A DNA stretch of 64,000 bases from assembly GCF_963676275.1 (NCBI RefSeq), contig NZ_OY781091.1, forward strand, positions 4,793,001 to 4,857,000. The letters run 5' to 3'. Position 1 is the stretch's first letter. Each line of letters begins with the position of its first letter. The translations under genes and the position numbers were made by a program. The notes below the pieces were generated by a model that was not told the origin of the DNA, made no database searches, and was given only the letters and a program-made list of their open reading frames with translations. The stretch comes from an uncultured Cohaesibacter sp. (GTDB lineage Bacteria > Pseudomonadota > Alphaproteobacteria > Rhizobiales > Cohaesibacteraceae). Shown piece by piece: positions 1,547 through 41,401 of this stretch.

Positions 1547-3016
1547 GTGAGTAATTATGATCCCTGCGCATTTTTTTGCGAAATGTCGAGCAGGATGGCA
1601 GACCGCAGTCCGAAGTTGGAAAGTATCTGGCAAAGGTTTGATGGGGCAGATTTCGACAATCTGAAGGCAAGGGCCAAGGATGCGGATCTGGAACTTTTCA
1701 ATCTCGGCGTAACCTTCACTGTCTATAGCGACAAGGATGTTATTGATCGCGTCTTGCCCTTTGACATCATACCACGCGTGCTGACCGCCAGCGAATGGGA
1801 CACAATTGACCGGGGTGTCATTCAGCGCGTCTCCGCCATCAACGCCTTCCTGCATGATATCTATAACGACCGCCACATCATCAATGACGGAACAATTCCG
1901 GCCGATCTCGTTCTGGGCAATTCCAACTATCGCGAAGTCATGGTCGGCTTCACCCCGGCATGCAATGTCTATACCCATATTTCCGGCACCGATATCATTC
2001 GCGATGACAGCGGCGAATTTCTCGTGCTGGAAGACAATGTGCGCTCACCATCCGGTGTGTCCTACGTGGTTGAAAACCGGCATCTGATGGAGCGCTCCTT
2101 CCCGGATCTGCTTGCCGATCTGAAATTGCGCAAGGTGTCTGACTATGGCACCAACCTGTTTGCCAAACTGAGCGAAACCGCCCCTGACGGCTGTCTGGAC
2201 AAGGATGACCCGCAGATTGTCGTCATGTCTCCGGGCATGTTCAACTCGGCCTATTTCGAGCATATTTTCCTCGCCCGCGAAATGGGTGTTCCGGTTGTCG
2301 AGGGAAGCGATCTCTTCTGCGATGATGACAAGGTCTATATGAAGACCATCGGCGGTCCGCGCCGGGTCGATGTCATCTATCGCCGCATTGATGATGAATT
2401 TCTTGACCCCGACGCCTTCCGGCCCGATTCCATGCTGGGTGTCAAAGGGCTGGTCAAGGCCATGCTGAAGGGCAATGTCACCATCGCCAATGCGCTGGGC
2501 ACTGGCGTTGCCGATGACAAGGCGGTCTATGCCTATATGCCGCGCATCATCAGATATTATCTCAATGAAGAGCCGATCCTGAACAATGTGAAAACCCACA
2601 TCTGCCGGGAAAGTGATGCGCTGCAATATACGCTCGATCATCTGCATGAACTGGTGGTCAAACCCGTCGGCGAATCCGGCGGCTATGGCATCACCATCGG
2701 CCCCAAGGCCAGCAAGGAAGAGCTGGCCGAGGCACGCGCAGCCCTGCTGGCCAATCCGAGCAATTTCATCGCCCAGCCGATGATCTCCCTTTCCGTCTGC
2801 CCGACATTGGGCGAAACAGATCTGGTCGCCCGCCATGTGGACCTGCGCCCCTTTGCCATCACCGGCAAGGGCACCTGGGTCCTGCCGGGTGGGCTCACCC
2901 GCGTCGCCCTCAAGGAAGGCTCGCTGATCGTCAACTCCTCGCAGGGAGGCGGCACGAAAGACACATGGGTCCTTGCCGAAGACCAATTCAATTCAAATGA
3001 CGGAGGCAACTCATGA
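1547..3016 (+). CDS. Circularly permuted ATP-grasp type 2 protein (DUF404/DUF407)
   Basis: A 489-residue protein of the circularly permuted ATP-grasp family, predicted carboxylate-amine/peptide ligases of unknown substrate. The N-terminal part has the family string FTVYSDKD...LPFDIIPRVL, followed by RVSAINAFLHDIY and a conserved LVLEDNVRSPSGVSYV segment. The C-terminal ATP-grasp half carries VVKPVGESGGYGI, with K372 as the probable nucleotide-binding lysine, and VDLRPFAI. I chose the GTG at 1547 because AAAGG lies 8 bases upstream and the resulting N-terminus (MSNYDP) resembles relatives; a GTG at 1538 and ATGs at 1583 and 1595 have poorer sites. It overlaps the alpha-E gene by 4 bases (ATGA), implying translational coupling. 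The family is known from comparative genomics to travel with alpha-E and transglutaminase genes; no reaction can be assigned from sequence. Confidence 0.9.
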   Translation: MSNYDPCAFFCEMSSRMADRSPKLESIWQRFDGADFDNLKARAKDADLELFNLGVTFTVYSDKDVIDRVLPFDIIPRVLTASEWDTIDRGVIQRVSAINAFLHDIYNDRHIINDGTIPADLVLGNSNYREVMVGFTPACNVYTHISGTDIIRDDSGEFLVLEDNVRSPSGVSYVVENRHLMERSFPDLLADLKLRKVSDYGTNLFAKLSETAPDGCLDKDDPQIVVMSPGMFNSAYFEHIFLAREMGVPVVEGSDLFCDDDKVYMKTIGGPRRVDVIYRRIDDEFLDPDAFRPDSMLGVKGLVKAMLKGNVTIANALGTGVADDKAVYAYMPRIIRYYLNEEPILNNVKTHICRESDALQYTLDHLHELVVKPVGESGGYGITIGPKASKEELAEARAALLANPSNFIAQPMISLSVCPTLGETDLVARHVDLRPFAITGKGTWVLPGGLTRVALKEGSLIVNSSQGGGTKDTWVLAEDQFNSNDGGNS

Positions 3017-4026
3017 GTCTGCTACTGAGTCGCTATGCTGAAGCCCTGTTCTGGTTCGCCCGCTATATCGAACGCTCCGCAAGTCTGGCCCGCATTCTCA
3101 ATGTGCAAGCCAGCTTCTGGCAGGATCATTCCAGTCAGGAGAACTGGGCCTCCATCCTTTCGCTCTATGTCGATACGGAACGCTTTACCAAACACCACGG
3201 CCATATCACCGCCCAGAAGGTGGCCAAATTCTACATCACCGACCGGGAAAATCCCGGCTCCATCCTCTCCTGCCTCTGGGCAGCGCGTGAAAATGCCCGT
3301 CTGCTGCGGCCGCTGATCTCCGTTTCCATGTGGTCCTATATCAATGTTTCCTACAATGAAATGAAGAGCCTGAGCGACCGCGATCTGGATGCCGCGCGCC
3401 TGTCGCGCACCTGCGAATCCATCGCCCGCACCTGTGATGCAATCATGGGGGTCACCGAAGGCACCTATTATCGCGATGCCGGCTGGCGCTTCTATCAGCT
3501 CGGCTTGTGGATCGAACGGGCCGACCAGACCAGCCGTCTGCTTGATGTCAAGGTTGCCCAGGTGGCAAGCTTCAACGGACTGGATCAGACCGAAACCGTG
3601 GCCGACATGGAATTCTGGAAACTGCTGCTGCATTCCTTTGAGGCCTATCACGCCTTCCAGCGCGCCAAACCGGGCCGGATGGACCCCAAAAAGGTCGCCA
3701 ATTTCCTGATGTTCAACGAGAGTTTCCCCAGATCGCTCACCCATTGCATCGGCGAAATTCAGGACATGCTCAACGAGCTCTATATGGGCTATCGATTGCG
3801 CCGTGTCGCCCAGTGTTATGAAGAAGTCGAAATGTTGTTGTATGAGCTTGAAGCAGCCGCAAAGGATCCCCATCTGCATCTGCGTTTTCATGGTTTCAAC
3901 GACAAGGTGCAGAACCGCCTCATGGAAATAACGAGCCGGTTGGGCAAATTCTTTTTCGGGCATGCAGACTGGTCAAAAGAGGCGGAAGAATGCGAGGCTC
4001 AAATCCAGTCTCAATCCACTTCCTGA
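3013..4026 (+). CDS. Alpha-E domain protein (DUF403)
   Basis: A 337-residue, largely alpha-helical cytoplasmic protein of the alpha-E (DUF403) family. The opening motif LLSRYAEALFWFARYIERSASLARIL and the later LGLWIERADQTSRLLDVK are diagnostic. Alpha-E proteins have no established activity; they are almost always encoded beside, or fused to, circularly permuted ATP-grasp proteins and are thought to be their partner subunit. Here the start codon overlaps the stop of the ATP-grasp gene by 4 bases, and the same two domains recur as a fusion at 7806-10424, which supports a physical complex. No signal peptide or membrane segment is visible. Confidence 0.9.
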   Translation: MSLLLSRYAEALFWFARYIERSASLARILNVQASFWQDHSSQENWASILSLYVDTERFTKHHGHITAQKVAKFYITDRENPGSILSCLWAARENARLLRPLISVSMWSYINVSYNEMKSLSDRDLDAARLSRTCESIARTCDAIMGVTEGTYYRDAGWRFYQLGLWIERADQTSRLLDVKVAQVASFNGLDQTETVADMEFWKLLLHSFEAYHAFQRAKPGRMDPKKVANFLMFNESFPRSLTHCIGEIQDMLNELYMGYRLRRVAQCYEEVEMLLYELEAAAKDPHLHLRFHGFNDKVQNRLMEITSRLGKFFFGHADWSKEAEECEAQIQSQSTS

Positions 4027-4137
4027 CGCCATATCTGAAACGACAGATTCAAACTTTCATTCGTGATCTTTTCCTGATCCGCCCATCGGCACTTGTCCGC
4101 ATGTGGATCCGGGGCTTGAAACAAAGGCACATGCATA

Positions 4138-7100
4138 ATGTCCATTCATGCAGCTCTGACGCACAAGACCAAATATATTTATGATCGCCCCACGGGCATG
4201 GGCCCGCAGATCATTCGCCTGCGCCCCGCCCCCCATACGCGCAACCAGATCCTGTCCTATTCCCTCAATATCGAACCGGCCGACCACTGGATCAACTGGC
4301 AGCAGGACCCGTTCGGCAACTATATGGCGCGCATCGTCTTTCCTGAAAAGATCAGATCCTTTTCAGTGACGGTTGATCTGGTTACCGACATGTCGGTGAT
4401 CAATCCGTTCGACTTTTTCATCGAAGAAAGTGCCGAACATTTCCCCTTCAAATATGCCGATACAGAGAAGAAGGATCTTGCCCCCTATCTGGAGCTGGGC
4501 GAGACGACCCCGCTTCTGGCCGCTCTGCTCAAGGAAATCGAACCGATCCACAAGAACAAGGAGATCAAGACCGTCGATCTGCTGGTTCAGGTCAATCATC
4601 TGATCGAGAGCAAGATCGACTATCTCATCCGCATGGAACCGGGCGTCCAGTCACCAGAAGAAACGCTGACCAAATGCTCCGGCTCCTGCCGCGACAGCTC
4701 ATGGCTGCTGGTGCATGTCATGCGTCATCTGGGGCTGGCCGCGCGTTTCACCTCGGGCTATCTGATCCAGCTCAAACCGGATGTCAAACCCCTTGAAGGC
4801 CCGGAAGGCACCGATCATGATTTCACCGACCTGCATGCCTGGACAGAGGTCTATATTCCCGGCGCAGGCTGGATCGGCCTTGATCCGACATCGGGCCTGC
4901 TGACAGGCGAAAGCCATATTCCGCTCGCCGCGACACCGCATCCGATCTCGGCAGCGCCGATCACCGGTGCCCATGACAAGGCGGAAGTCGAATTCGAGTT
5001 CGAAATGGATGTGCAGCGCATTTTCGAGCGCCCCCGCGTCACCAAACCCTATACGGACGAACAATGGAAGACCATCAACAAGGTGGGAGAGATGGTCGAC
5101 AAGCGCCTCAAGGACGGCGATGTCCGCCTGACCATGGGCGGCGAACCGACCTTTGTTTCCATCGATGATTATGAAGGGGACGAATGGAACACCGGTGCGG
5201 TTGGCCCGACCAAGCGCTATTACGCCGAAAATCTGATCCGCCGCCTGCGTGATCGCTTTGCACCCGGCGGCCTGCTGCATTTCGGGCAGGGCAAATGGTA
5301 TCCCGGCGAGCAGCTTCCCCGCTGGGCCTTTTCGCTCTATTGGCGCGCCGACGAGGAACCGCTCTGGGAAGATCCCGCACTGATTGATCAGGAAACCCCG
5401 CAGCAGCCTGCGGATTCCAAAATCGCCCAGCGCTTCATCTACAAATTGGCCGAAAAGCTCAAGATCGATCCCAAATGTGTGCTGACCGCCTATGAGGATC
5501 CGGCCCATTTCTCGCTGGTCGAGCAGAAGCTGCCGATCAATCTGGACCCCTCCGATAACAAGATAGAGGATCCGGCCGAACGCGCCCGCGTCATCAAGGT
5601 GTTCGAGAAGGGCCTCACCGCCCCGGCCGGCTTCGTGCTGCCGGTTCAGGCTTGGAACAGCGAAGCCTATGGCCGCTCATGGATGTCCGAGGTCTGGAAA
5701 TTCCGTCGCGACCGGCTCTTCCTCATCCCCGGCGACAGCCCGGTCGGCTTCCGCCTGCCGCTTGGCTCCCTTACCTATCTGCCCGAAACCCAGTTTCCCC
5801 ATGTGATCCCGATGGATCCACATGCGGCCCACGCAGCCCTTCCCGCCCGCGAGGCACTTCTGCGCGACCGGCGCAAGCCCTTCACCCCGCGTGAAAAGCT
5901 AAGGAAAACCGATCCGGCCAAGCTGCTCGATGCACCCGAGGTGCAATGGCACCAGACCGAATATAAAACCTTCATTCCCATGAATGAGGTTTCCGGCCAT
6001 GTCCGCACCGCCCTTTCGGTCGAACCGCGCGACGGGCATCTTTGCATCTTCATGCCGCCGCTGCACAATGCCGAAGACTATGCCGCCATGGTCGCAGCCA
6101 TTGAGGATGCAGCCAAGGATGTCGGCCAGCCGGTGCATATAGAAGGCTATGAACCACCATTCGATCCCCGCCTCAATGTCATCAAGGTGACGCCGGATCC
6201 GGGTGTTATCGAGGTCAATATCCAGCCCGCATCCAACTGGAAAGAGGCCAGCAAGATCACCCAGATCCTCTATGAAGAGGCGCGCCTTGCCCGTCTGGGA
6301 ACCGAGAAATTCATGCTCGATGGTCGCCACACCGGTACCGGCGGCGGCAACCATATCGTGCTGGGGGGTGTCACGCCCTCGGACAGCCCGTTTTTGAGGC
6401 GCCCCGATCTGGTGGCCAGCCTCGTCACCTATTGGCAGAATCATCCCAGCCTGTCCTATCTCTTCTCGGGCACCTTCATCGGCCCGACCTCTCAGGCTCC
6501 CCGGATAGATGAAGGCCGCCATGACAATCTCTATGAGCTGGAAATCGCCCTCAAGCAGGTCCCGCTACCCGGAGAGGGCTTCATTCCCAACTGGCAGGTC
6601 GATCGCCTGTTCCGCAACCTGCTGATTGATGTGACCGGCAACACCCACCGGGCAGAAATCTGCATCGACAAGCTCTTCTCGCCCGATGGCCCGACCGGCC
6701 GCCTTGGCCTGGTGGAATTCCGCTCCTTCGAAATGCCACCCCATGCCCAGATGTCACTGGCCCAGCAATTGCTGCTGCGCGCCATCATCGTCCGCCTGTG
6801 GGAGAAGCCCTATCGCAACCGGCTGGTGCGCTGGGGCACGCAATTGCATGACCGTTTCATGCTACCCCATTATGTCCGCGAGGATTTCCGCGACATTCTC
6901 AAGGATCTCTCCCTGCATGGACTGGAGCTGGATGAGGCCTGGTTTGCGCCCCATTTCGAATTCCGCTTCCCACGCTATGGCGAGGTCAATTATGACGGTG
7001 TCCAGATCGAGCTGCGTCAGGCGCTGGAACCATGGAACGTACTGGGCGAGGAAGGCGTCATCGGCGGCACGGCGCGCTATGTGGACAGCTCGCTCGAGCG

Positions 7101-7515
7101 GGTTCAGGTCAAGGCCAAGGGCATCAACCCGGAACGTCATATCCTCTCGGTCAACGGCATAGCCATTCCGCTACAGCCAACCGGACGGCAGGATGAGGCC
7201 GTGGCAGGCATCCGCTATCGGGCCTGGCAGCCCCCTTCCTGCCTGCATCCGATGATTGGTGTGCACACGCCGCTGACCTTCGATCTGATGGACAAATGGA
7301 ACAGGCGTTCTCTGGGCGGCTGCCGCTATCATGTCGCCCATCCGGGTGGACGCGGCTATGATATCTTCCCCGTCAATGCCTATGAGGCAGAAAGCCGCCG
7401 CCTCTCCCGCTTCGAGATGATGGGCCACACTCCCGGCTATGCCGAACCGGTCAGGCTGGAGCAGAGCGTGGAATTCCCCTACACGCTGGATCTGCGGCTG
7501 GCATCTGTCAGCTAG
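4138..7515 (+). CDS. Transglutaminase-like/DUF2126 putative amidoligase fusion
   Basis: A very large protein of 1125 residues. Residues 1-90 are the N-terminal beta-rich domain that precedes bacterial transglutaminase-like cysteine proteases. Residues about 150-260 form the transglutaminase core with an intact catalytic triad: C184 in GSCRDSSW, H233 in DLHAWTEVY and D249 in GLDPTSG. From about residue 340 onward is the DUF2126 region, which Pfam describes as a putative amidoligase; visible conserved strings are MGGEPTFVSIDD, TGTGGGNHIVLGG and VEFRSFEMPPHAQM. It therefore joins a predicted peptidase or amidase with a predicted ligase. It begins 111 bases after the alpha-E gene, likely in the same transcript. 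The substrate is unknown. Confidence 0.9.
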   Translation: MSIHAALTHKTKYIYDRPTGMGPQIIRLRPAPHTRNQILSYSLNIEPADHWINWQQDPFGNYMARIVFPEKIRSFSVTVDLVTDMSVINPFDFFIEESAEHFPFKYADTEKKDLAPYLELGETTPLLAALLKEIEPIHKNKEIKTVDLLVQVNHLIESKIDYLIRMEPGVQSPEETLTKCSGSCRDSSWLLVHVMRHLGLAARFTSGYLIQLKPDVKPLEGPEGTDHDFTDLHAWTEVYIPGAGWIGLDPTSGLLTGESHIPLAATPHPISAAPITGAHDKAEVEFEFEMDVQRIFERPRVTKPYTDEQWKTINKVGEMVDKRLKDGDVRLTMGGEPTFVSIDDYEGDEWNTGAVGPTKRYYAENLIRRLRDRFAPGGLLHFGQGKWYPGEQLPRWAFSLYWRADEEPLWEDPALIDQETPQQPADSKIAQRFIYKLAEKLKIDPKCVLTAYEDPAHFSLVEQKLPINLDPSDNKIEDPAERARVIKVFEKGLTAPAGFVLPVQAWNSEAYGRSWMSEVWKFRRDRLFLIPGDSPVGFRLPLGSLTYLPETQFPHVIPMDPHAAHAALPAREALLRDRRKPFTPREKLRKTDPAKLLDAPEVQWHQTEYKTFIPMNEVSGHVRTALSVEPRDGHLCIFMPPLHNAEDYAAMVAAIEDAAKDVGQPVHIEGYEPPFDPRLNVIKVTPDPGVIEVNIQPASNWKEASKITQILYEEARLARLGTEKFMLDGRHTGTGGGNHIVLGGVTPSDSPFLRRPDLVASLVTYWQNHPSLSYLFSGTFIGPTSQAPRIDEGRHDNLYELEIALKQVPLPGEGFIPNWQVDRLFRNLLIDVTGNTHRAEICIDKLFSPDGPTGRLGLVEFRSFEMPPHAQMSLAQQLLLRAIIVRLWEKPYRNRLVRWGTQLHDRFMLPHYVREDFRDILKDLSLHGLELDEAWFAPHFEFRFPRYGEVNYDGVQIELRQALEPWNVLGEEGVIGGTARYVDSSLERVQVKAKGINPERHILSVNGIAIPLQPTGRQDEAVAGIRYRAWQPPSCLHPMIGVHTPLTFDLMDKWNRRSLGGCRYHVAHPGGRGYDIFPVNAYEAESRRLSRFEMMGHTPGYAEPVRLEQSVEFPYTLDLRLASVS

Positions 7516-7805
7516 ACGCCGCCGCTGAGGCGGAAAACGAACAAAGAACCGACGGGGCTGAAGCAAAAGGACTTCTGCCCTGTCTTTACCGCCCGCCCTG
7601 ACGCCACAAGCTGTGTTATTCCTGCCATGAAGCCATGACAAAATAGCACCTGCGTATCATTTGAATCTGTGGCTTTGTAATTTTACCGAACAAATGATAA
7701 AAGCGTAGATCCATTCCCCACCGACCGCCCATAGGGGAATGGAAAGATATTCCGGCTTAATGATAACAATAAGGCTCCCATGTGGACCAGCGTCACGGAG
7801 TGAAA
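7516..7805. other. Intergenic gap inside the ATP-grasp cluster
   Basis: This 290-base gap is the longest inside the cluster. It starts with a short GC-rich inverted repeat (CGCCGC-TGAG-GCGG region, about 7517-7533) with no T-tract, then becomes AT-rich near 7640-7770. It may hold a second promoter for the fused ATP-grasp gene, but no consensus element is clear. Confidence 0.3.
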
Positions 7806-10424
7806 ATGGAGTTGGATAAGGCCTCTCGCCCAGCAACCGGTCTGCCTGACAACAGCGCGCAAGACAGCGCCCTGCCGCCTGTCGACGCAAGCCTGCTGTA
7901 TCAGACACGCCCCGGCATCCATGATGAAATGATGGATCCGGACGGATCGATCATGCCCCATTGGCAACATTGGTTCGCAGCCTTCTCCCGCTGGAGCCCG
8001 GAAGAAAGATCCGCCAATTGGGATGAGCTGAATGAGGTCGTCCGCGAAACCGGCATTGCCTATGACCTGTTTGCCGATCCCAACGAGACCAAGCAGCCAT
8101 GGTCCATCGATCTGGCTCCCCTCATCATCGCGCCGGAAGAATGGCAATGGCTGAAAGTGGCGCTGGCCCAGAGGGCGCGCCTTTTCAACGCCATGCATAA
8201 TGACCTCTATGGCCATCGCCGCCTGCTTTATGAAGGCCATGTTCCCGCCGCTCTGGTGCTGAGTGATCCTTCCTATCTGCGTCCGATGCGCGGCAATCAG
8301 AGCGCCTATAACGGCATCCAGTTCTACGCTGCCGACCTTGCCAAAATGCCGGACGGAACCTGGCGCGTGCTGGACAACCATGCCGAAACGCCCGCCGGGC
8401 TCGGCTTTGCGCTTGCCAACAGGATCGCGCTGACCCATTGCGAGGGCAATCTGTTCCGCTCCAGCAAGGCCATCCGCCTCGCCTCCTATTTCCAGCAGTT
8501 GCAATCCACGCTGGTCAAGCGCACCGAACTGGAAGATCCCTATATCGCGATCCTCTCTCCCGGCCCGGAACATCCGGACTATTTCTCCCATGCCTATCTG
8601 GCCCGCTATCTTGGCTATCTGCTGGTTGAGGGGGGAGATCTCGTCTATCAGAATAACCGCATCTGCCTCAAAACCCTTGCCGGCCTCAAGCCCATTGACC
8701 TGATCATCCGCTCGATCGAAGGGCTCAATGCCGATCCGCTGGAACTCAATCCCAACGGCATGGATGGCACCACCTCGATGGTGCAGGCCATTCGCGACAA
8801 GGGCATCATCATGGCCAACCAGCTGGGAACCTCGGTCATCGAAAACCGTGCGCTGGCTCCCTATCTACCGGAAATCTGCAAATTCCTGCTTGGTGAAGAG
8901 CTGATGCTGCATGAAGCCCCGCGCTGGTGGCTTGGCGATGCCGCAAGCCGCAAGCATGTGGTGGAAAATCTTGATACCGTGTTGATCTCGGATGCCCATG
9001 AAGGATCCGGTCGCCCCGGCGAAGCCCGCCCGGCGACGGACCCCTCCACCCTGTCACAGGAGGAGAGAAACGGGCTGGTTGAACGGATCATGCTGTTTGG
9101 CAACAATCTGGTCGCCGAGCAGAAAACCGGATATGCCACCACGCCGAGCTGGTCCGGGGAAAGACTGGAGCCGCAACCCTTTGCCATCCGCTTCTACAGC
9201 TCGCGCAAGGAACAGGGCTACGACATTCTCCCCGGCGGCCTGTCCATGTCTGTTGGTGAACAGCGCGCCATCGGTCTGCATTCTCCCGAAGGGCTGACAA
9301 GAGATGTCTGGATTGTCTCCGAAACCCAGCCCGAGCCTTTCGAAAGCATCTGGGCCAGCATCACCCGGCAGGGTTCCTATTCACGCGCCGGTCGCTCCCT
9401 GCAGAGCCGTATCGCCGATAACCTGTTCTGGCTGGGGCGCAATATCGAGCGCATCGAATGGCAATTCAGGCTCTGCCGACAGGCACTGGCCCGCCTCACC
9501 GAGGATAGCGGCCCCGAAGAGGACCAGCGCACCATCGTCTCTGCCCTCAACACCCTGATATTGCGAGCGCCGAAGGCCCAGATTTTCGATGCCGGCTTTG
9601 GCGGTATGAACGAGATCGAGCGGCTGGTACGCACGATTCTCTATGGCAAGAATCGCGCCTATGGTTTTCAGGAGAGCCTTTCACACATGCACAGGCTGAC
9701 AGGCCTTACGCGTGATCGCCTGTCTGCCGAAGCCTGGCGCATTCTCAATGAATTCTTCACCGACCAGCGCTGGTACAAGGAGCCGGGCTTTACCCATACC
9801 GGACATGTCATCGATCTGCTCGACAAGGGACTGATGGTTCTGGCCGCATTCTCCGGCATGGCGATGGAAAATATGACGCGCAATTATGGCTGGCGCTTCC
9901 TCGATATCGGTCGCCGCATCGAACGGGCGGAGAATCTGTCCGGCCTGCTCAACAGGCTGATTTTCGCCCCCGGTATGGCCGATGATACCTCCCGCCGCAT
10001 GATGTTCATTCTCGAAGTGGCCGACAGTTTCATCACCTATCGCTCACGCTATCGCATCACGCCAACCTTGCCGGCGGTGATCGACCTGCTGCTGCTGGAC
10101 GAAACCAACCCGCGCTCCATCGCCTTCCAGATAGCGGCGCTCTATGACCATATCAACTATCTGCCACAGGAACCCGAAAGCGGCCTGCGCAGCGAGGAAA
10201 ACCGGCTTCTGCTTGAGCTTCTGACCGATCTGCAACTGTCCGAAGGGCACAAGCTCGCACAGATCCCGCTATTTGAGCAGGACAAGGATATCGAAGAGAT
10301 CATCTCGGAAGAATGCCGCCTTGAGCAATTGCTGAACAATCAGATTTCAAAATTGCCACAGCTGACCGAGATTTTGACCCGCCGATATTTCACGCATACC
10401 GAAGAGCAGGCTCAACGGATTTGA
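7806..10424 (+). CDS. Circularly permuted ATP-grasp/alpha-E fusion protein
   Basis: A protein of 872 residues that fuses the two domains encoded separately at 1547-4026. Residues about 100-515 match the DUF404/DUF407 ATP-grasp region (LIIAPEEWQWLKVALAQRA, VLDNHAETPAGLGFALANR). Residues about 523-870 are an alpha-E domain beginning RSLQSRIADNLFWLGRNIER and including FLDIGRRIERAENLSGLL. I prefer the ATG at 7806, preceded by GGAG, over a GTG at 7782. In the ATP-grasp loop the lysine seen in the stand-alone copy (VVKP) is replaced: the aligned segment reads VLISDAHEGSGRPG, with I394 at the lysine position. This suggests altered or lost nucleotide binding, so the fusion may be a regulatory or scaffold paralogue. 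It is followed 25 bases later by a transglutaminase gene. Confidence 0.9.
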   Translation: MELDKASRPATGLPDNSAQDSALPPVDASLLYQTRPGIHDEMMDPDGSIMPHWQHWFAAFSRWSPEERSANWDELNEVVRETGIAYDLFADPNETKQPWSIDLAPLIIAPEEWQWLKVALAQRARLFNAMHNDLYGHRRLLYEGHVPAALVLSDPSYLRPMRGNQSAYNGIQFYAADLAKMPDGTWRVLDNHAETPAGLGFALANRIALTHCEGNLFRSSKAIRLASYFQQLQSTLVKRTELEDPYIAILSPGPEHPDYFSHAYLARYLGYLLVEGGDLVYQNNRICLKTLAGLKPIDLIIRSIEGLNADPLELNPNGMDGTTSMVQAIRDKGIIMANQLGTSVIENRALAPYLPEICKFLLGEELMLHEAPRWWLGDAASRKHVVENLDTVLISDAHEGSGRPGEARPATDPSTLSQEERNGLVERIMLFGNNLVAEQKTGYATTPSWSGERLEPQPFAIRFYSSRKEQGYDILPGGLSMSVGEQRAIGLHSPEGLTRDVWIVSETQPEPFESIWASITRQGSYSRAGRSLQSRIADNLFWLGRNIERIEWQFRLCRQALARLTEDSGPEEDQRTIVSALNTLILRAPKAQIFDAGFGGMNEIERLVRTILYGKNRAYGFQESLSHMHRLTGLTRDRLSAEAWRILNEFFTDQRWYKEPGFTHTGHVIDLLDKGLMVLAAFSGMAMENMTRNYGWRFLDIGRRIERAENLSGLLNRLIFAPGMADDTSRRMMFILEVADSFITYRSRYRITPTLPAVIDLLLLDETNPRSIAFQIAALYDHINYLPQEPESGLRSEENRLLLELLTDLQLSEGHKLAQIPLFEQDKDIEEIISEECRLEQLLNNQISKLPQLTEILTRRYFTHTEEQAQRI

Positions 10425-10449
10425 CCGGACAGGAAGGCATTGACCAACG

Positions 10450-11517
10450 ATGCGATACAGAATAACGCACAAAACAGAATATCGCTATGCAACGCCGGTG
10501 GCCCAGTCCAACCATCTGGTGCATCTGACCCCCTGCGCGGTTGATGGCCAGATTGTAGAGCAGCATGCCATTGCCATCACGCCGGCACCGGCCCATCGCC
10601 GCGATTTCACCGACTATTTCGGCAATTCGACCATTCATCTGACGATGGAAGAAGATCACAGCGTCCTGACCATGAATGCCCAGACAACGGTGACCGTCAC
10701 AAGAGACCATTCCCCCTTGCTGGCCAAATCTGTCGCCTCATGGGAAATGGTTCGCGATCTCATGACTGATGCCGCTCATGTCGATGAGGCGGAATTTGCC
10801 TGCTATTCGACCTTCACCAATCCCACGCCCGAAATCGCGGCCTATGGTGCCCTATCCTTCCCCCCCGGTCGTCCCCTGATGGAAGCTGTCATGGATCTGA
10901 CCAGACGGATTTTCACCGACTTCGAGTATAACCCCACCGTAACCGACATTTTCACCCCCATCTCGCAGGTTTTCGAAATGAAGAGCGGGGTCTGTCAGGA
11001 TTTTGCCCATTTCCAGCTTGCCTGCCTCAGGGCTCTGGGCATTCCGGCCCGTTATGTTTCGGGCTATTTGCGCACCTATCCGCCCAAGGGCAAACCGCGC
11101 CTGATCGGTGCCGACGCTTCCCATGCCTGGATTTCCGTCTGGTGCCCCGAGGCTGGCTGGATCGACTTTGACCCCACCAACAACAAGACCATCGCCGATG
11201 AACATGTAACGCTGACCGTGGGCAGGGATTTTGGTGATGTCAGCCCGATCTCCGGGGTCATTCTGGGGGGCGGCAGCCATTTCGTGCATGTCTCGGTCGA
11301 TGTCATGCCCATTGACGATCAGGGACAGGAAATCGGACAATCCATCTCGCCCGAACAGCAAGCGGAAGAAACAGCAGTAGAAGGGGCGACACAGCCAGAA
11401 CTGTCTCAGGCCCCGACATTGGCCACTGCTCAGGAGCAAAGTCAGGAACAGAGCCAGATCCAGACACAGGAAAAAGCCCTGCCTGCGGACCCTTTGCCAG
11501 CCGACAGAACCTATTAG
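10450..11517 (+). CDS. Transglutaminase-like cysteine peptidase
   Basis: A 355-residue bacterial transglutaminase-like protein. Residues 1-100 are the beta-rich N-terminal domain (MRYRITHKTEYRYATPV); the catalytic core has C182 in SGVCQDFAHF, H225 in ASHAWISVW and D241 in DFDPTN, so the triad is intact. The last 60 residues are a Gln/Glu-rich low-complexity tail without recognisable fold. Such proteins hydrolyse amide bonds or cross-link peptides; here the context, last gene of the ATP-grasp/alpha-E cluster, suggests it processes or releases a ligated product. No signal peptide is seen, so it is likely cytoplasmic. It is 25 bases downstream of the fusion gene. Confidence 0.88.
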   Translation: MRYRITHKTEYRYATPVAQSNHLVHLTPCAVDGQIVEQHAIAITPAPAHRRDFTDYFGNSTIHLTMEEDHSVLTMNAQTTVTVTRDHSPLLAKSVASWEMVRDLMTDAAHVDEAEFACYSTFTNPTPEIAAYGALSFPPGRPLMEAVMDLTRRIFTDFEYNPTVTDIFTPISQVFEMKSGVCQDFAHFQLACLRALGIPARYVSGYLRTYPPKGKPRLIGADASHAWISVWCPEAGWIDFDPTNNKTIADEHVTLTVGRDFGDVSPISGVILGGGSHFVHVSVDVMPIDDQGQEIGQSISPEQQAEETAVEGATQPELSQAPTLATAQEQSQEQSQIQTQEKALPADPLPADRTY

Positions 11518-17627: not shown

Positions 17628-17975
<348 letters not shown>

Positions 17976-18018
17976 GCCAAACCCCAATCAAGTAGAAGTG
18001 AAAAACAAGGACAATCAA

Positions 18019-19377
18019 ATGTCAAAAGTAACCCTTGCCCTTCTTGTTGGCGCAGCAAGTCTCATGGCCGGTCCGGCCCTCGCCCAGGAAGCTGCCGAAG
18101 CGGCTCCGGTGGCCACCGGCGAAGCTGCAGCCCATACCCAATATATCCTCAACACCCTGCTCTTCCTGATCGGCGGTTTCCTTGTGATGTGGATGGCTGC
18201 GGGCTTTGCCATGCTCGAAGCTGGCCTTGTTCGCTCCAAGAACGTTTCCATGCAGAGCATGAAGAACATCTCCCTTTATGCCGCAGCTGGCATCATGTAT
18301 TACCTCATCGGTTACAACCTGATGTATACCGGTGTTGATGGTGGTTATATCGGTTCCTTCTCCCTCTTCTACGCTCTGGATCCGGTAGGTCTGGAAGGCG
18401 CAGACGCTGCTGCCCTGCTCGATACCGGCTATTCCACCGGTTCGGACTGGTTCTTCCAGATGGTCTTCGTTGCCACCGCAGCATCTGTTGTTTCCGGTAC
18501 TCTGGCCGAGCGCGTCAAACTGTGGCCATTCATGATCTTCACGGTCGTTCTGACTGCCTTCATCTACCCGATCGCCGGTTCCTGGCAGTGGGGTGGCGGC
18601 TGGCTGTCTGAAATGGGCTTCTCCGATTTCGCCGGTTCCACGCTCGTGCACTCCGTTGGTGGCTGGGCAGCTCTTGCCGGTGCTCTTCTGCTTGGCGCAC
18701 GTAAAGGCAAATATGGCGCTGACGGTTCTGTTAACCCGATGCCTGCTTCCAACATTCCGCTGGCAACGCTCGGCACCTTCATTCTGTGGCTCGGCTGGTT
18801 CGGCTTCAACGGCGCTTCCCAGCTTGCCATGGGCACCATCGGTGACGTTTCCGACGTTTCCCGCATCTTTGCCAACACCAACATGGCAGCCGCCGGTGGC
18901 GTTATCGCAGCCATGATCCTGCTGCAGATCCTCTACAAGAAGGTCGACGTGACCATGGTTCTCAACGGTGCGCTGGCCGGTCTGGTCTCCATCACTGCTG
19001 AGCCTCTGACCCCGACCATCGGCGAATCCATCATCATCGGTGCAATCGGTGCGGTTCTCGTCATCATCGTTGTTCCGCTTCTCGACAAGCTGAAAATCGA
19101 CGACGTTGTCGGCGCCATCCCTGTTCACCTTGTCTGCGGTATCTGGGGCACCATGGTTGTTCCATTCACCAATGACGGCACTTCCTACGCAACCCAGTTC
19201 ATCGGTGTCATCTCCTACGGTATCTTCACTCTGGTCTGCTCCTTCATCGTATGGGGCATCCTGAAGGCAACCATGGGTATCCGTGTTACCGAAGAAGAAG
19301 AATATATGGGTCTGGACAAAGCCGAAATCGGTGTCGAAGCTTACCCGGAATTCGGCATTGGCAGCCAGCGCGTATAA
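18019..19377 (+). CDS. amtB: Ammonium transporter AmtB
   Basis: A 452-residue ammonium channel. Residues 1-22 form a cleavable signal peptide ending in ALA-QEA, followed by about 11 membrane segments. The twin-histidine pore is visible: one histidine in STLVHSVGGWAALAGALLLG and the other in PVHLVCGIWGTM; GTFILWLGWFGFNGASQLA is another hallmark. I place the start at the ATG at 18019, not the in-frame codon at 17899 inside glnK, because the signal peptide starts here. It is co-transcribed with glnK and ends before a strong terminator. Confidence 0.95.
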   Translation: MSKVTLALLVGAASLMAGPALAQEAAEAAPVATGEAAAHTQYILNTLLFLIGGFLVMWMAAGFAMLEAGLVRSKNVSMQSMKNISLYAAAGIMYYLIGYNLMYTGVDGGYIGSFSLFYALDPVGLEGADAAALLDTGYSTGSDWFFQMVFVATAASVVSGTLAERVKLWPFMIFTVVLTAFIYPIAGSWQWGGGWLSEMGFSDFAGSTLVHSVGGWAALAGALLLGARKGKYGADGSVNPMPASNIPLATLGTFILWLGWFGFNGASQLAMGTIGDVSDVSRIFANTNMAAAGGVIAAMILLQILYKKVDVTMVLNGALAGLVSITAEPLTPTIGESIIIGAIGAVLVIIVVPLLDKLKIDDVVGAIPVHLVCGIWGTMVVPFTNDGTSYATQFIGVISYGIFTLVCSFIVWGILKATMGIRVTEEEEYMGLDKAEIGVEAYPEFGIGSQRV

Positions 19378-21441: not shown

Positions 21442-21617
21442 CTGAATCAAGTTGCTGGCTACGCAAACACCAGATGCCAGCTTGCCCCTTTAAGAGCAAG
21501 GGCCGTGCCAGATGGCCAGAAAAAAGCTAAAGACATATATAGTGGCTTTCCGCCCCATATCGCCACATGATATTGATTCACAATTGAAATTCGAAAGGCT
21601 TTGGTAAGGAACCGACC

Positions 21618-38611: not shown

Positions 38612-41401
38612 TCAGAATCCATAGGTGAAGCTGGCTTTCACGCTGTGCGATTGGCTGTCTTCCGAGGCAGCAAATTCATAACCCAGATTGGTAGCAACAT
38701 GCTCGCTCGCCTTGAGCGACAATTGCAAGCCCACCCGGCCCTGATGCTGGCCCGTGATGGAATCCGACAATGAGTAGGTCGTGTCCGGCAGCGTTGACCA
38801 ATACATGCCCTGTTTGTAGCTGGCATCAAAGATATGGGAATATCTGAAATTGATGCTGGAACTCAATTTACCCAAAGGCGTGTCGATCGTCTGATAGGCG
38901 AGCTTGCCGCCGACCCACAGCGAGGGCATCGTTGCATCCATCTTGTTATAGGACAGATTGTTGCTGCCAGCACCGCTTTCACTATATTGGTCGAGCCAGA
39001 GCTTCTGAATATTGGCCTTCACATAGGATGTCAGCTGGAAATGGTTGAATGGCATGACATGATTGAGGCTAACGCTGGCAAACAGACTGTCACTGTTGCG
39101 ATTGCCTCTGGCGATGCTATCGGCATTGCTGTCATAGCGTTTCGACCAGATCGTGCCCCCGGCATAGCCACCGCTCAGACCAATGAAGCTGTTATTCATC
39201 AGCCGATAGGTTGAATAAAGCTGGGCCGAATAGAGCTGGCTGCGCGTGCTGGAGCCATTATCGTCGATCGAAGCCCTGTCATTGCCAAAGCCGATCGCAA
39301 CCCCCATTCTGGCGCGCCCAGAAACCTTGACATCTGCCCCGAGATTGACGCCCGTGGTGGTGAAATGGAAAGACTTTTCATCAGAACTGTCTTTGCCATA
39401 GGTGACCGTACCGGATGTCCAGAATTTGGGATGCAGGGATGTCGCATCAATCCAGCTATTGGCAACCCTGTCCTTGACCGATTGCTTGGACCCGATGAGA
39501 GCCGGTATGCGGCCAGACTGGGTTGTGGAAGTCGCAGTCAGGTCGCTGTTGCCATCAGGCGCGGTCAATGTGACGCCACCGTCATAATCCGGCAAGTCGC
39601 AGAAACCGTCTGAACCAGCATCGCCATTGCCTTGATCTGTCTTGCGAGCGGCATTCATGTCGCATTCGTTGAGCGTCATCATCCGGTCCTGAACGCTGTC
39701 CATCTGGTTGTCACCAAAATCGACAACCGACTGAACCTGATGGCGGATGATGGAACGCACGGTGCTATCCTGTGTCGGATCCAGATCATCATAGCTGTAG
39801 GCAGCATTCAGGCTGGCCGAACCAAAGTCGTTGACAATGGTCACCGTGACAGTGCCTTTCTGGTGCGCCGGGGTCACCACGGTAACCTGGCTGTCACTAT
39901 TCACCGTCAGTTTGCTGACAGCGACGCCACCGAAGGTGACGCTGGAGACCGTTGCAAACTCGCTGCCGCTGATCACCACTTCCGTACCGCCTGTGACAGG
40001 CCCGCTATCCGGCGTCAGTGACGTAATTTCAGGGAAATTGGATTTATCAACCGTGACCGTAACCGTCGTCGAGGCGGCATCATAATAGCTGTCGCCACCA
40101 TAGGATACGGTGATGGTGTGGCTACCAACGGACAGGGAGGAAATGGCAAGACTCGCCGAACCGCTTGACAGGGTTGCTGTGCCGAAAGTCGTGCCACCTT
40201 CGGAAAAGGTGATCGTACCCGTAGGAGCACTCAGACCAGATACTGTGGCCACATTCGCCGTTACCGTCGTGGATTCGCCATAACCAATGGTGGAGGGTGA
40301 AGCCGACGCGGTAATGGATGCGTCACTGAGCGTGACCGTAACGGTTATGCTCTGTGTTGAAATCCCGAAATTGCTATCAGCGTCGATGAAAGTCGCCGTG
40401 ATGTTATGGGTTCCCACGGAAAGCCAGGCCCAGTTGAGTGTTGCCTGCCCGGAGGAAAGAGTGACCAAATCGATTATACTCCCGCTCACATCATCCCTGA
40501 ATGACACGCTGCCACTCGGCGTGAGACTGGAGCCTCCCGATGCGGAAACAGTTGCCGTTATGCTGGCGGTCGTGCCGTAGGTTGTGGTCGAGCTTGCGGC
40601 GCTCAGGGTCATTGAAGTGGCCACCTGGCCTACCGTAATCGATGTACTGGAAGAGGTGCTGTCATTGTAATTGCTATCCCCCCCATCCTCATTATAGACC
40701 GCATAAACCGAATGGATTCCTTTGGTCAGGGATGACGTTGACAGGCTTGCCGTGCCACTGCTCAGACTTGCCGTACCGATTTCTCCGCTTGCATCATAGA
40801 AGGTAACGGAGCCCGAAGGATCATCCCCTCCGGTGATGGAAGAATCCGCTCTGGCGACAGATGCGGTCAGTGTTGTGCTCTCACCATAGGACACACCGGC
40901 ATCGGAAACCGTAATTGTCGTCGTGGTATCTGCCTTGGAGACCGTTATCGTGTAAGTCGCCGAGTGGCTCTCCTTGTTGACGCCGGTTGGGCGAAATTCG
41001 GCATAGACGGAATGGGTGCCCGCCGGAAAGTCGGAAATTTCGACGGTCTGGGAATAGGAATCGGAGGTGGTGATATAGCCCGATGTGGCATAATCCGAAC
41101 CATCGACAACAAAAGTGACAGGACCACAAGTACAGGCCTTCTGCCCGGTAAGCGTCAGGCTCAGGCTCACCGTTTCACCATAGGTGGCACTTGTCGGACT
41201 GACAGACAAAGTGGTCGTAGTCTCATATGTCCCGCTGCCCGAACTGTTATAATAGTAGCCGTCAGCATCATAAGCTGCATGCGCTGCGCCCGAAACAAAT
41301 AAGAATACGTAGAAAGACAAAAGAAATAGTGTAGCGAAACTTGCTATATTGACAATTTTGCCAATTATTTCTGCTTTATTGAAGTTTGTAATTTCAGACA
41401 C
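38612..41401 (-). CDS. Autotransporter with four Ig-like repeats and an IPT/TIG domain
   Basis: A 929-residue surface protein. Residues 1-42 are an extended signal peptide (long N-region, hydrophobic core, AHA cleavage). Residues about 60-440 hold four Ig-like repeats of about 90 residues, each with a YGE/YGT turn and an SLSxGTHxxTA-type strand. Residues about 445-535 form an IPT/TIG domain (ITSLTPDSGPVTGGTEVVISG). The last 280 residues form an autotransporter beta-barrel ending KASFTYGF with the C-terminal phenylalanine needed for outer-membrane insertion. The start is a GTG. The passenger looks like an adhesin stalk with no enzymatic domain. It is divergent from an OmpR-like regulator gene. 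Confidence 0.9.
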   Translation of the reverse strand: MSEITNFNKAEIIGKIVNIASFATLFLLSFYVFLFVSGAAHAAYDADGYYYNSSGSGTYETTTTLSVSPTSATYGETVSLSLTLTGQKACTCGPVTFVVDGSDYATSGYITTSDSYSQTVEISDFPAGTHSVYAEFRPTGVNKESHSATYTITVSKADTTTTITVSDAGVSYGESTTLTASVARADSSITGGDDPSGSVTFYDASGEIGTASLSSGTASLSTSSLTKGIHSVYAVYNEDGGDSNYNDSTSSSTSITVGQVATSMTLSAASSTTTYGTTASITATVSASGGSSLTPSGSVSFRDDVSGSIIDLVTLSSGQATLNWAWLSVGTHNITATFIDADSNFGISTQSITVTVTLSDASITASASPSTIGYGESTTVTANVATVSGLSAPTGTITFSEGGTTFGTATLSSGSASLAISSLSVGSHTITVSYGGDSYYDAASTTVTVTVDKSNFPEITSLTPDSGPVTGGTEVVISGSEFATVSSVTFGGVAVSKLTVNSDSQVTVVTPAHQKGTVTVTIVNDFGSASLNAAYSYDDLDPTQDSTVRSIIRHQVQSVVDFGDNQMDSVQDRMMTLNECDMNAARKTDQGNGDAGSDGFCDLPDYDGGVTLTAPDGNSDLTATSTTQSGRIPALIGSKQSVKDRVANSWIDATSLHPKFWTSGTVTYGKDSSDEKSFHFTTTGVNLGADVKVSGRARMGVAIGFGNDRASIDDNGSSTRSQLYSAQLYSTYRLMNNSFIGLSGGYAGGTIWSKRYDSNADSIARGNRNSDSLFASVSLNHVMPFNHFQLTSYVKANIQKLWLDQYSESGAGSNNLSYNKMDATMPSLWVGGKLAYQTIDTPLGKLSSSINFRYSHIFDASYKQGMYWSTLPDTTYSLSDSITGQHQGRVGLQLSLKASEHVATNLGYEFAASEDSQSHSVKASFTYGF

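Follow-up and report, generated by a model that had tools for sequence, protein, structure and literature searches.

Herein we describe a cluster of five genes at positions 1547-11517 of a 64,000-nucleotide stretch from an uncultured Cohaesibacter species (contig NZ_OY781091.1), and this whole stretch is called the window below. According to the open reading frames (ORFs) and Pfam, the five genes stand in a row on the plus strand and encode an ATP-grasp protein (G1), an alpha-E protein (A1), a transglutaminase-like (TG) domain joined to DUF2126 (T1D), a fusion of ATP-grasp and alpha-E (G2A2), and another TG protein (T2); the families given in the initial annotation, which was made from the sequence letters alone, are thus confirmed, and so are the ORFs and the strand. 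G1 (1547-3016, with a GTG start at 1547, or else a start at 1538) matches CP_ATPgrasp_2 with 527 bits, and it is an unfused, circularly permuted ATP-grasp that is predicted to be an active carboxylate-amine ligase. A1 (3013-4026), whose start overlaps the end of G1, matches Alpha-E with 250 bits and has conserved ER motifs. T1D (4138-7515; 1125 aa) matches Bact_transglu_N, Transglut_core and DUF2126 (1345 bits), where the TG-like domain occupies residues about 1-275 and DUF2126 residues 280-1120. G2A2 (7782-10424) matches CP_ATPgrasp_2 (354 bits) and Alpha-E (219 bits), and T2 (10450-11517) matches Bact_transglu_N and Transglut_core. The nearest relatives of T1D come from Cohaesibacter species with 94, 94 and 84% identity, and an alpha-E search of the whole genome (5.03 Mb, single contig) gave two matches, both inside the cluster.

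The two ATP-grasp modules are non-equivalent, a point absent from the initial annotation. With the residues counted from the G1 start at 1538, E165, N167, D326, D327, K328, K375, G381, G382 and G384 are invariant across 19 G1-type ATP-grasps, and in the window G1 the first six of these as well as the GGYG loop are all intact; E165 and N167 are presumably the metal ligands, as in ATP-grasp enzymes generally, and the lysine and the glycine loop presumably have their usual roles too. The initial G1 group consists of the window and 18 frames without alpha-E that score above 380 bits against the window G1, while the initial fused-type group consists of the other 63, where the window and 61 more show alpha-E in the frame and L076 (843 aa) does not (loci are labelled with L and genomes with G throughout); stretches shorter than 350 residues, and L001 and L002, which are the window's own DNA, were excluded from this alignment. 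E165 and N167 are kept in 42 of 42 G1-type relatives (19 initial and 23 fetched later), and the E-x-N pair is kept in 0 of 67 fused-type relatives (63 initial and 4 later). An independent recheck on the sequences outside the discovery set gave the same picture, with E and N in 23/23 G1-type copies, one of which has D at position 382, and in 0/4 fused copies. Among the 63 fused-type copies, column 167 is R in 54, H in 7 and W in 2, E165 is retained in one copy only, and both DDK (D326-D327-K328) and the glycine motif GGYG are mostly lost; the window G2 itself has D, H and S at the active-site test columns (E-x-N, lysine and glycine-rich loop). Moreover in the alpha-E part of the fused proteins, R92, R175 and other residues that are invariant in unfused alpha-E are lost, while the ER motifs are retained. 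In a tree of the 42 G1-type and 67 fused-type ATP-grasps, each group is monophyletic, with local support of 1.0 and 0.82 respectively under midpoint rooting. Such a contrast of 42/42 and 0/67 suggests that G2A2 is probably a conserved pseudo-ligase, with the loss of motifs pointing to the inactivity of G2, and the ligase pair that was originally proposed is not supported. As for solved structures, the only relative of G1 is 3n6x, labelled as a putative glutathionylspermidine synthase, which matches G1 over the full length (528 bits) but has no fused alpha-E; its match to the ATP-grasp part of G2A2 is 183 bits, and a G2A2 profile against solved structures gave nothing significant across the alpha-E part.

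The cluster had also been regarded as one set present twice, and this view gives way to another one: G1-A1 is the front of an Anbu operon, and T1D, G2A2 and T2 form a separate trio. A scan of named genomes with T1D gave 532 confirmed stretches, and the best 80 loci of these 532 were retained for the neighbourhood counts. T1D is directly followed on the same strand by the fused ATP-grasp/alpha-E gene, or by the ATP-grasp part of it, in 59 of the 80 DUF2126 loci, and T2 comes next in 54 of these 59, the remaining five loci ending too early to tell; G1 and A1 are found upstream of T1D on the same strand in 11/80 loci. Both neighbourhoods occur together in six loci (L003-L006, L008 and L064), and in L064 an Anbu gene is located between G1-A1 and the DUF2126 part; L031 probably also has the five-gene layout, but the contig stops within its G1 and it is left outside the count of six. 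In genomes having Anbu without DUF2126, 11 of 12 stretches show the operon order G1-A1-TG-Anbu, and in the twelfth, L143, Anbu is on the opposite strand with no TG match. The window G1-A1, an unfused CP-ATP-grasp and then an alpha-E, is arranged as the front half of such an operon, and the G1 and A1 of the Anbu operon in Pseudomonas and Yersinia are alike to those of the window both in order and in sequence (G1 identity of 47-56% over 20 stretches). Unlike this operon, the window has no Anbu match and no stand-alone TG between A1 and T1D; instead T1D directly follows A1, and G1-A1 is joined to DUF2126 and the probable fused pseudo-ligase. Compared with the DUF2126 trio (TG-DUF2126, fused ATP-grasp/alpha-E and TG), the window is alike in order and in the use of a single strand, but unlike most of the trios it has G1 and A1 directly upstream. 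Considering the two ATP-grasp clades, the cluster seems to be a merger of two modules instead of a doubled set. The idea that a single set was duplicated locally was considered and rejected, as G1 and G2 are in separate clades and the G1 proteins of other classes are 47-56% identical to that of the window. In the tree the window G1 is closest to the G1 of L003-L006 and L008, and so the merged layout looks inherited within Hyphomicrobiales.

At the genome level, a sample of 299 genomes of the phylum has alpha-E in 171, which makes these proteins widespread, DUF2126 in 92, and Anbu in 114. Alpha-E occurs in every one of the 92 DUF2126 genomes, with two or more in 86 of them, while among the 207 DUF2126-negative genomes 11 have two or more alpha-E and 68 have one; the Fisher p for the alpha-E count against DUF2126 is about 1e-54, which is no true probability since the genomes are related. 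The dependence between the two halves is one-sided, as DUF2126 without alpha-E occurs in 0/92 genomes whereas alpha-E without DUF2126 occurs in 79/207. The initial annotation is supported in so far as the five genes recur as a unit with co-conserved halves. Seventy of the 92 DUF2126 genomes were examined singly, namely all 35 without Anbu and 35 of the 57 with Anbu, and 66 of the 70 have one G1-type plus one fused-length copy, where G1-type means the better-scoring alpha-E of each genome; in G155, G204 and G215 this alpha-E lies in long stop-to-stop frames (1145, 621 and 763 respectively), whose length leaves the unfused state unproven. The fused-length copy is within 7 kb of DUF2126 in 65/66 genomes, and the G1-type copy is within 15 kb in 26/66. 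For Anbu, a four-sequence profile was built because PF00227 detects this protein weakly, and at E 1e-15, the threshold behind the 114 genomes above, it gave no match in the window genome, so the idea that Anbu had been overlooked through a weak model was rejected. A co-occurring Anbu-type protease, for which the initial annotation suggested looking, is present in 57/92 DUF2126 genomes and lacks a match in 35, the window genome included; at least two alpha-E domains are nevertheless kept in 32 of these 35. Where Anbu and DUF2126 share a contig, they are no more than 1.8 kb apart in 11 of 28 pairs, which are a non-random draw from the 57 genomes with both. With alpha-E in 92/92 and Anbu in 57/92, DUF2126 in this sample is tied to the alpha-E/ATP-grasp half more strictly than to Anbu. 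Besides these, eleven genomes have two alpha-E with neither DUF2126 nor an Anbu match (G024, G114, G124, G170, G172, G189, G193, G201, G213, G237 and G275), possibly a third arrangement, and DUF2126 appears as partial matches only in G218 and in pieces with an in-frame stop in G053, perhaps decaying.

The two TG-like domains retain the aligned Cys, His and Asp columns that we take to be the catalytic triad. For the first TG, C184, H233 and D249 are present in 81/81 aligned sequences with the window included; for the second, whose alignment set was picked by similarity to the window T2, C182 and H225 are in 59/59 and D241 in 57/59. The two intact triads of the initial annotation are thus borne out, while its two processing peptidases stay conjectural, as both hydrolysis and transfer are conceivable for a TG-like fold. 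In L068 the TG next to G1-A1 (8996-9802), as read by eye, seems to lack the catalytic Cys, and there may thus be inactive copies among the TGs as well. DUF2126 is highly conserved, and the word amidoligase for it is the naming of Pfam. A DUF2126 profile against solved structures gave six matches at chance level (E 0.68 or worse), and against the GCS2 and Amidoligase_2 profiles it showed no detectable relation, in a test where GCS2 and Amidoligase_2 missed each other too. A relationship of DUF2126 with either family thus lacks a signal in a test of low sensitivity, where just the two GCS2 sub-groups recognised each other. A role in anti-phage defence was also considered and dropped, with no PADLOC match for any of the five proteins.

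Upstream of the cluster a sigma54-like -24/-12 element, TTGGTCCAAAATTTGCT, is located at 1362-1378 on the plus strand, about 170-185 bp before G1, and nothing else in the window matches with 2 mismatches or fewer. In an upstream alignment of four Cohaesibacter species (the window, L003, L004 and L005), TTGGTCC and TTGCT of the element are invariant, and two further blocks on the plus strand, 1265-1283 and 1309-1328, are largely conserved and are possible activator-binding sites. The sites were scored by a weighted consensus with a cut-off of 21, the weights being chosen by the author and the common -24/-12 pattern serving as the underlying consensus. By this scoring a site precedes G1 in 12/18 regions against 0.39 expected from shuffles, and the count becomes 11/17 at the genus level because the window and L005 are both Cohaesibacter; as a control, 2 of 120 segments at arbitrary places of the same loci, probably mostly within genes, carry it. 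The cut-off was set after the result of a lax threshold had been seen (14/19 against 5.97 expected upstream of G1, and 46/61 against 27.3 upstream of T1D), while 21 further G1-upstream regions, B. cenocepacia included, were unseen before the choice and have the site in 9 against 0.62 expected, most of the Alphaproteobacteria among them being without it. Upstream of T1D without a nearby G1, the site occurs in 30/61 regions against 1.75 expected, many of them from Pseudomonas. A sigma54 pattern search gives 3 sites in the window against 0.85 expected. These observations suggest that a sigma54 promoter probably drives the cluster when nitrogen is limiting.

Published expression data, as excerpted in each case, fit the reading of a sigma54 promoter. 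In an ntrC mutant of Burkholderia cenocepacia, the values listed for the genes I35_5080, 5081, 5082 and 5083 are -8.2, -9.4, -9.4 and -6.0 (PMC5491218), and the genes are given there as DUF404/407, DUF403, TG and large TG; in common with the window, they comprise ATP-grasp, alpha-E, TG and large TG. The record of another B. cenocepacia strain has a gene order matching I35_5080-83, with a fused copy and a TG downstream as in the window; unlike in the window, a further TG-like stretch separates A1 from T1D there, and it is from that species that the nitrogen data come. A nitrogen-linked regulation is also published for the Anbu operon of P. putida, where excerpts give log2 values of 4.44 and 3.99 for PP_2685 and PP_2688 in nitrate over ammonium (PMC8050072); for PP2685-PP2687, values of 6.6 to 11.1 stand in the first column of a table of nitrogen-limited versus carbon-limited cultures (PMC3325844). 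By analogy, nitrogen control would be expected in this Cohaesibacter as well. As separate observations, a P-II protein (glnK-like) and then an ammonium transporter (amtB-like) lie at 17637-19377, 6 kb downstream of the cluster, and on the minus strand at 21495-21511, CTGGCACGGCCCTTGCT reaches the full score, the highest of any sigma54-like match in the window.

To explain these results, we propose that the five genes form one system joined from two known modules, with one competent ligase (G1) and an inactive fused partner, a reading for which our rough probability is 0.6. G1 would be the one competent ligase, driving the joining of a carboxylate to an amine with ATP, and A1 its alpha-helical partner, the two being the ligase half of an Anbu-type operon; T1D-G2A2-T2 would be an accessory module dependent on G1-A1. 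G2A2 would most likely be a non-catalytic scaffold, substrate receiver or regulator for G1-A1 or T1D, presumably in a physical partnership; the TG-like domains would act next, by hydrolysis or transfer of an amide or isopeptide bond, and a second, unproven ligase-like activity may come from DUF2126. Given the probable sigma54 promoter under nitrogen limitation, the most likely output would be an amide-linked nitrogen compound or a protein tag, either made or remodelled. A bolder form, in which the cluster is a two-part amide-ligase machine whose family-wide pseudo-ATP-grasp/alpha-E acts in trans and steers the active pair to the DUF2126 product under nitrogen limitation, is tentative and falls somewhat short of even odds. 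Compared with the initial annotation, our proposal keeps the recurring co-conserved unit and the intact TG triads, and gives up the doubled set and the ligase pair.

Several points weigh against this proposal. The fused-type ATP-grasps keep D152 in 63/63, R437 in 63/63 and K or R at 375 in 56/63 copies, and G2 is under strong constraint; with these residues retained, G2 may still bind nucleotide or substrate, or use other metal ligands. Four of the 70 genomes (G036, G049, G081 and G291) have a single copy only, and in 40 of the 66 two-copy genomes the G1-type copy lies outside the 15 kb around DUF2126, being far off on the same contig in 16 and on other contigs in 24, which may be assembly breaks. 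As for the promoter, the 64-kb window holds ten sites with a score of at least 21, so that the window's own site is weak when taken alone; no strong site is found in 6 of the 18 regions (L006, L008, L022, L066, L076 and L129) and in 12 of the 21 further ones, and no sigma54-like site was found upstream of the nearby glnK-amtB. Moreover, when Anbu served as bait in Yersinia, a specific interaction among the proteins of the Anbu operon went undetected, according to an excerpt of PMC6376114.

Three other explanations were weighed. If both ATP-grasps were working ligases, as in the initial annotation, and made one amide bond after another, with an alpha-E and a TG for each of them, one would expect both modules to be full-length and far above the Pfam cut-off, as they are, and the retention of D152, R437 and often K/R375 in G2 would be natural; nevertheless the E-x-N pair is absent in 67/67 fused-type copies and the glycine loop and DDK motif are lost with it, and we regard this explanation as quite improbable. 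It is also conceivable that T1D-G2A2-T2 is self-standing with DUF2126 as the ligase, and that G1-A1 co-occurs by a shared nitrogen regulation without a joint reaction. The 40/66 genomes with a distant G1-type copy, the sites before T1D in G1-less loci (30/61, many in Pseudomonas) and the high conservation of DUF2126 agree with this, but DUF2126 is never found without any alpha-E (0/92), 32 of the 35 Anbu-less DUF2126 genomes have two or more alpha-E, and DUF2126 gives no signal against GCS2 and Amidoligase_2, though those two missed each other too; altogether a self-standing trio seems unlikely.

The direction of the chemistry might also be the reverse, with the cluster serving degradation instead of synthesis, as a nitrogen-scavenging set of deamidase or isopeptidase in which the ATP-grasps activate or capture peptide fragments. 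ATP-grasp enzymes generally act as ligases, which speaks against such a set, while the intact TG triads would suit it. So would the nitrogen-related regulation in two genera (PMC8050072 and PMC5491218) and, in marine metagenomes, an association with domains of urea metabolism (PMC3597751), as far as the excerpts of these sources go. On the opposite side the ATP-grasp of the Yersinia operon released phosphate from ATP, in the excerpt of PMC6376114, which is not deciding alone, and degradation is in our opinion unlikely too. The reading with one competent ligase and an inactive fused partner is thus the one we prefer.

The families and the Anbu operon are already known. In the literature searched, DUF2126 has no mention by name, no product of alpha-E was found, and no assigned function turned up for any member, in agreement with the initial annotation; an inactive, pseudo- or degenerate ATP-grasp has no mention there either, in a search that did not cover Iyer et al. 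2009. Three points were not seen in print there: that the loss in the fused copy is family-wide, that the dependence runs one way, and that the promoter recurs ahead of the DUF2126-linked layout. If it is true that a dead copy exists, that the DUF2126 half nearly always comes with a live copy, and that the promoter is of a nitrogen type, an open-ended prediction turns into specific tests, and the questions are sharpened to the identity of the ATP-using protein, to whether one copy binds the other, and to which amide compound occurs in nitrogen-starved cells.

The five-gene unit is also mobile and carried on plasmids. For example, an IncFII plasmid of Enterobacter roggenkampii (L129, NZ_CP116251.1) carries all five in an unchanged order and, for the most part, with overlaps between them; arsC lies some 2 kb upstream and an IS26 some 5 kb downstream. 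On a Caballeronia plasmid the five-gene order is interrupted by a putative zinc metallopeptidase gene on the opposite strand between A1 and T1D (L131, 10814-11875), and in the B. cenocepacia record the stretch inserted at this place (L130, 11707-11895) is a weak TG-like one, while a Shinella record has the trio alone within the stretch fetched. Elsewhere in the window, positions 38612-41401 encode a protein of 929 aa that combines a series of repeated Ig-like domains with a beta-domain of the autotransporter type.

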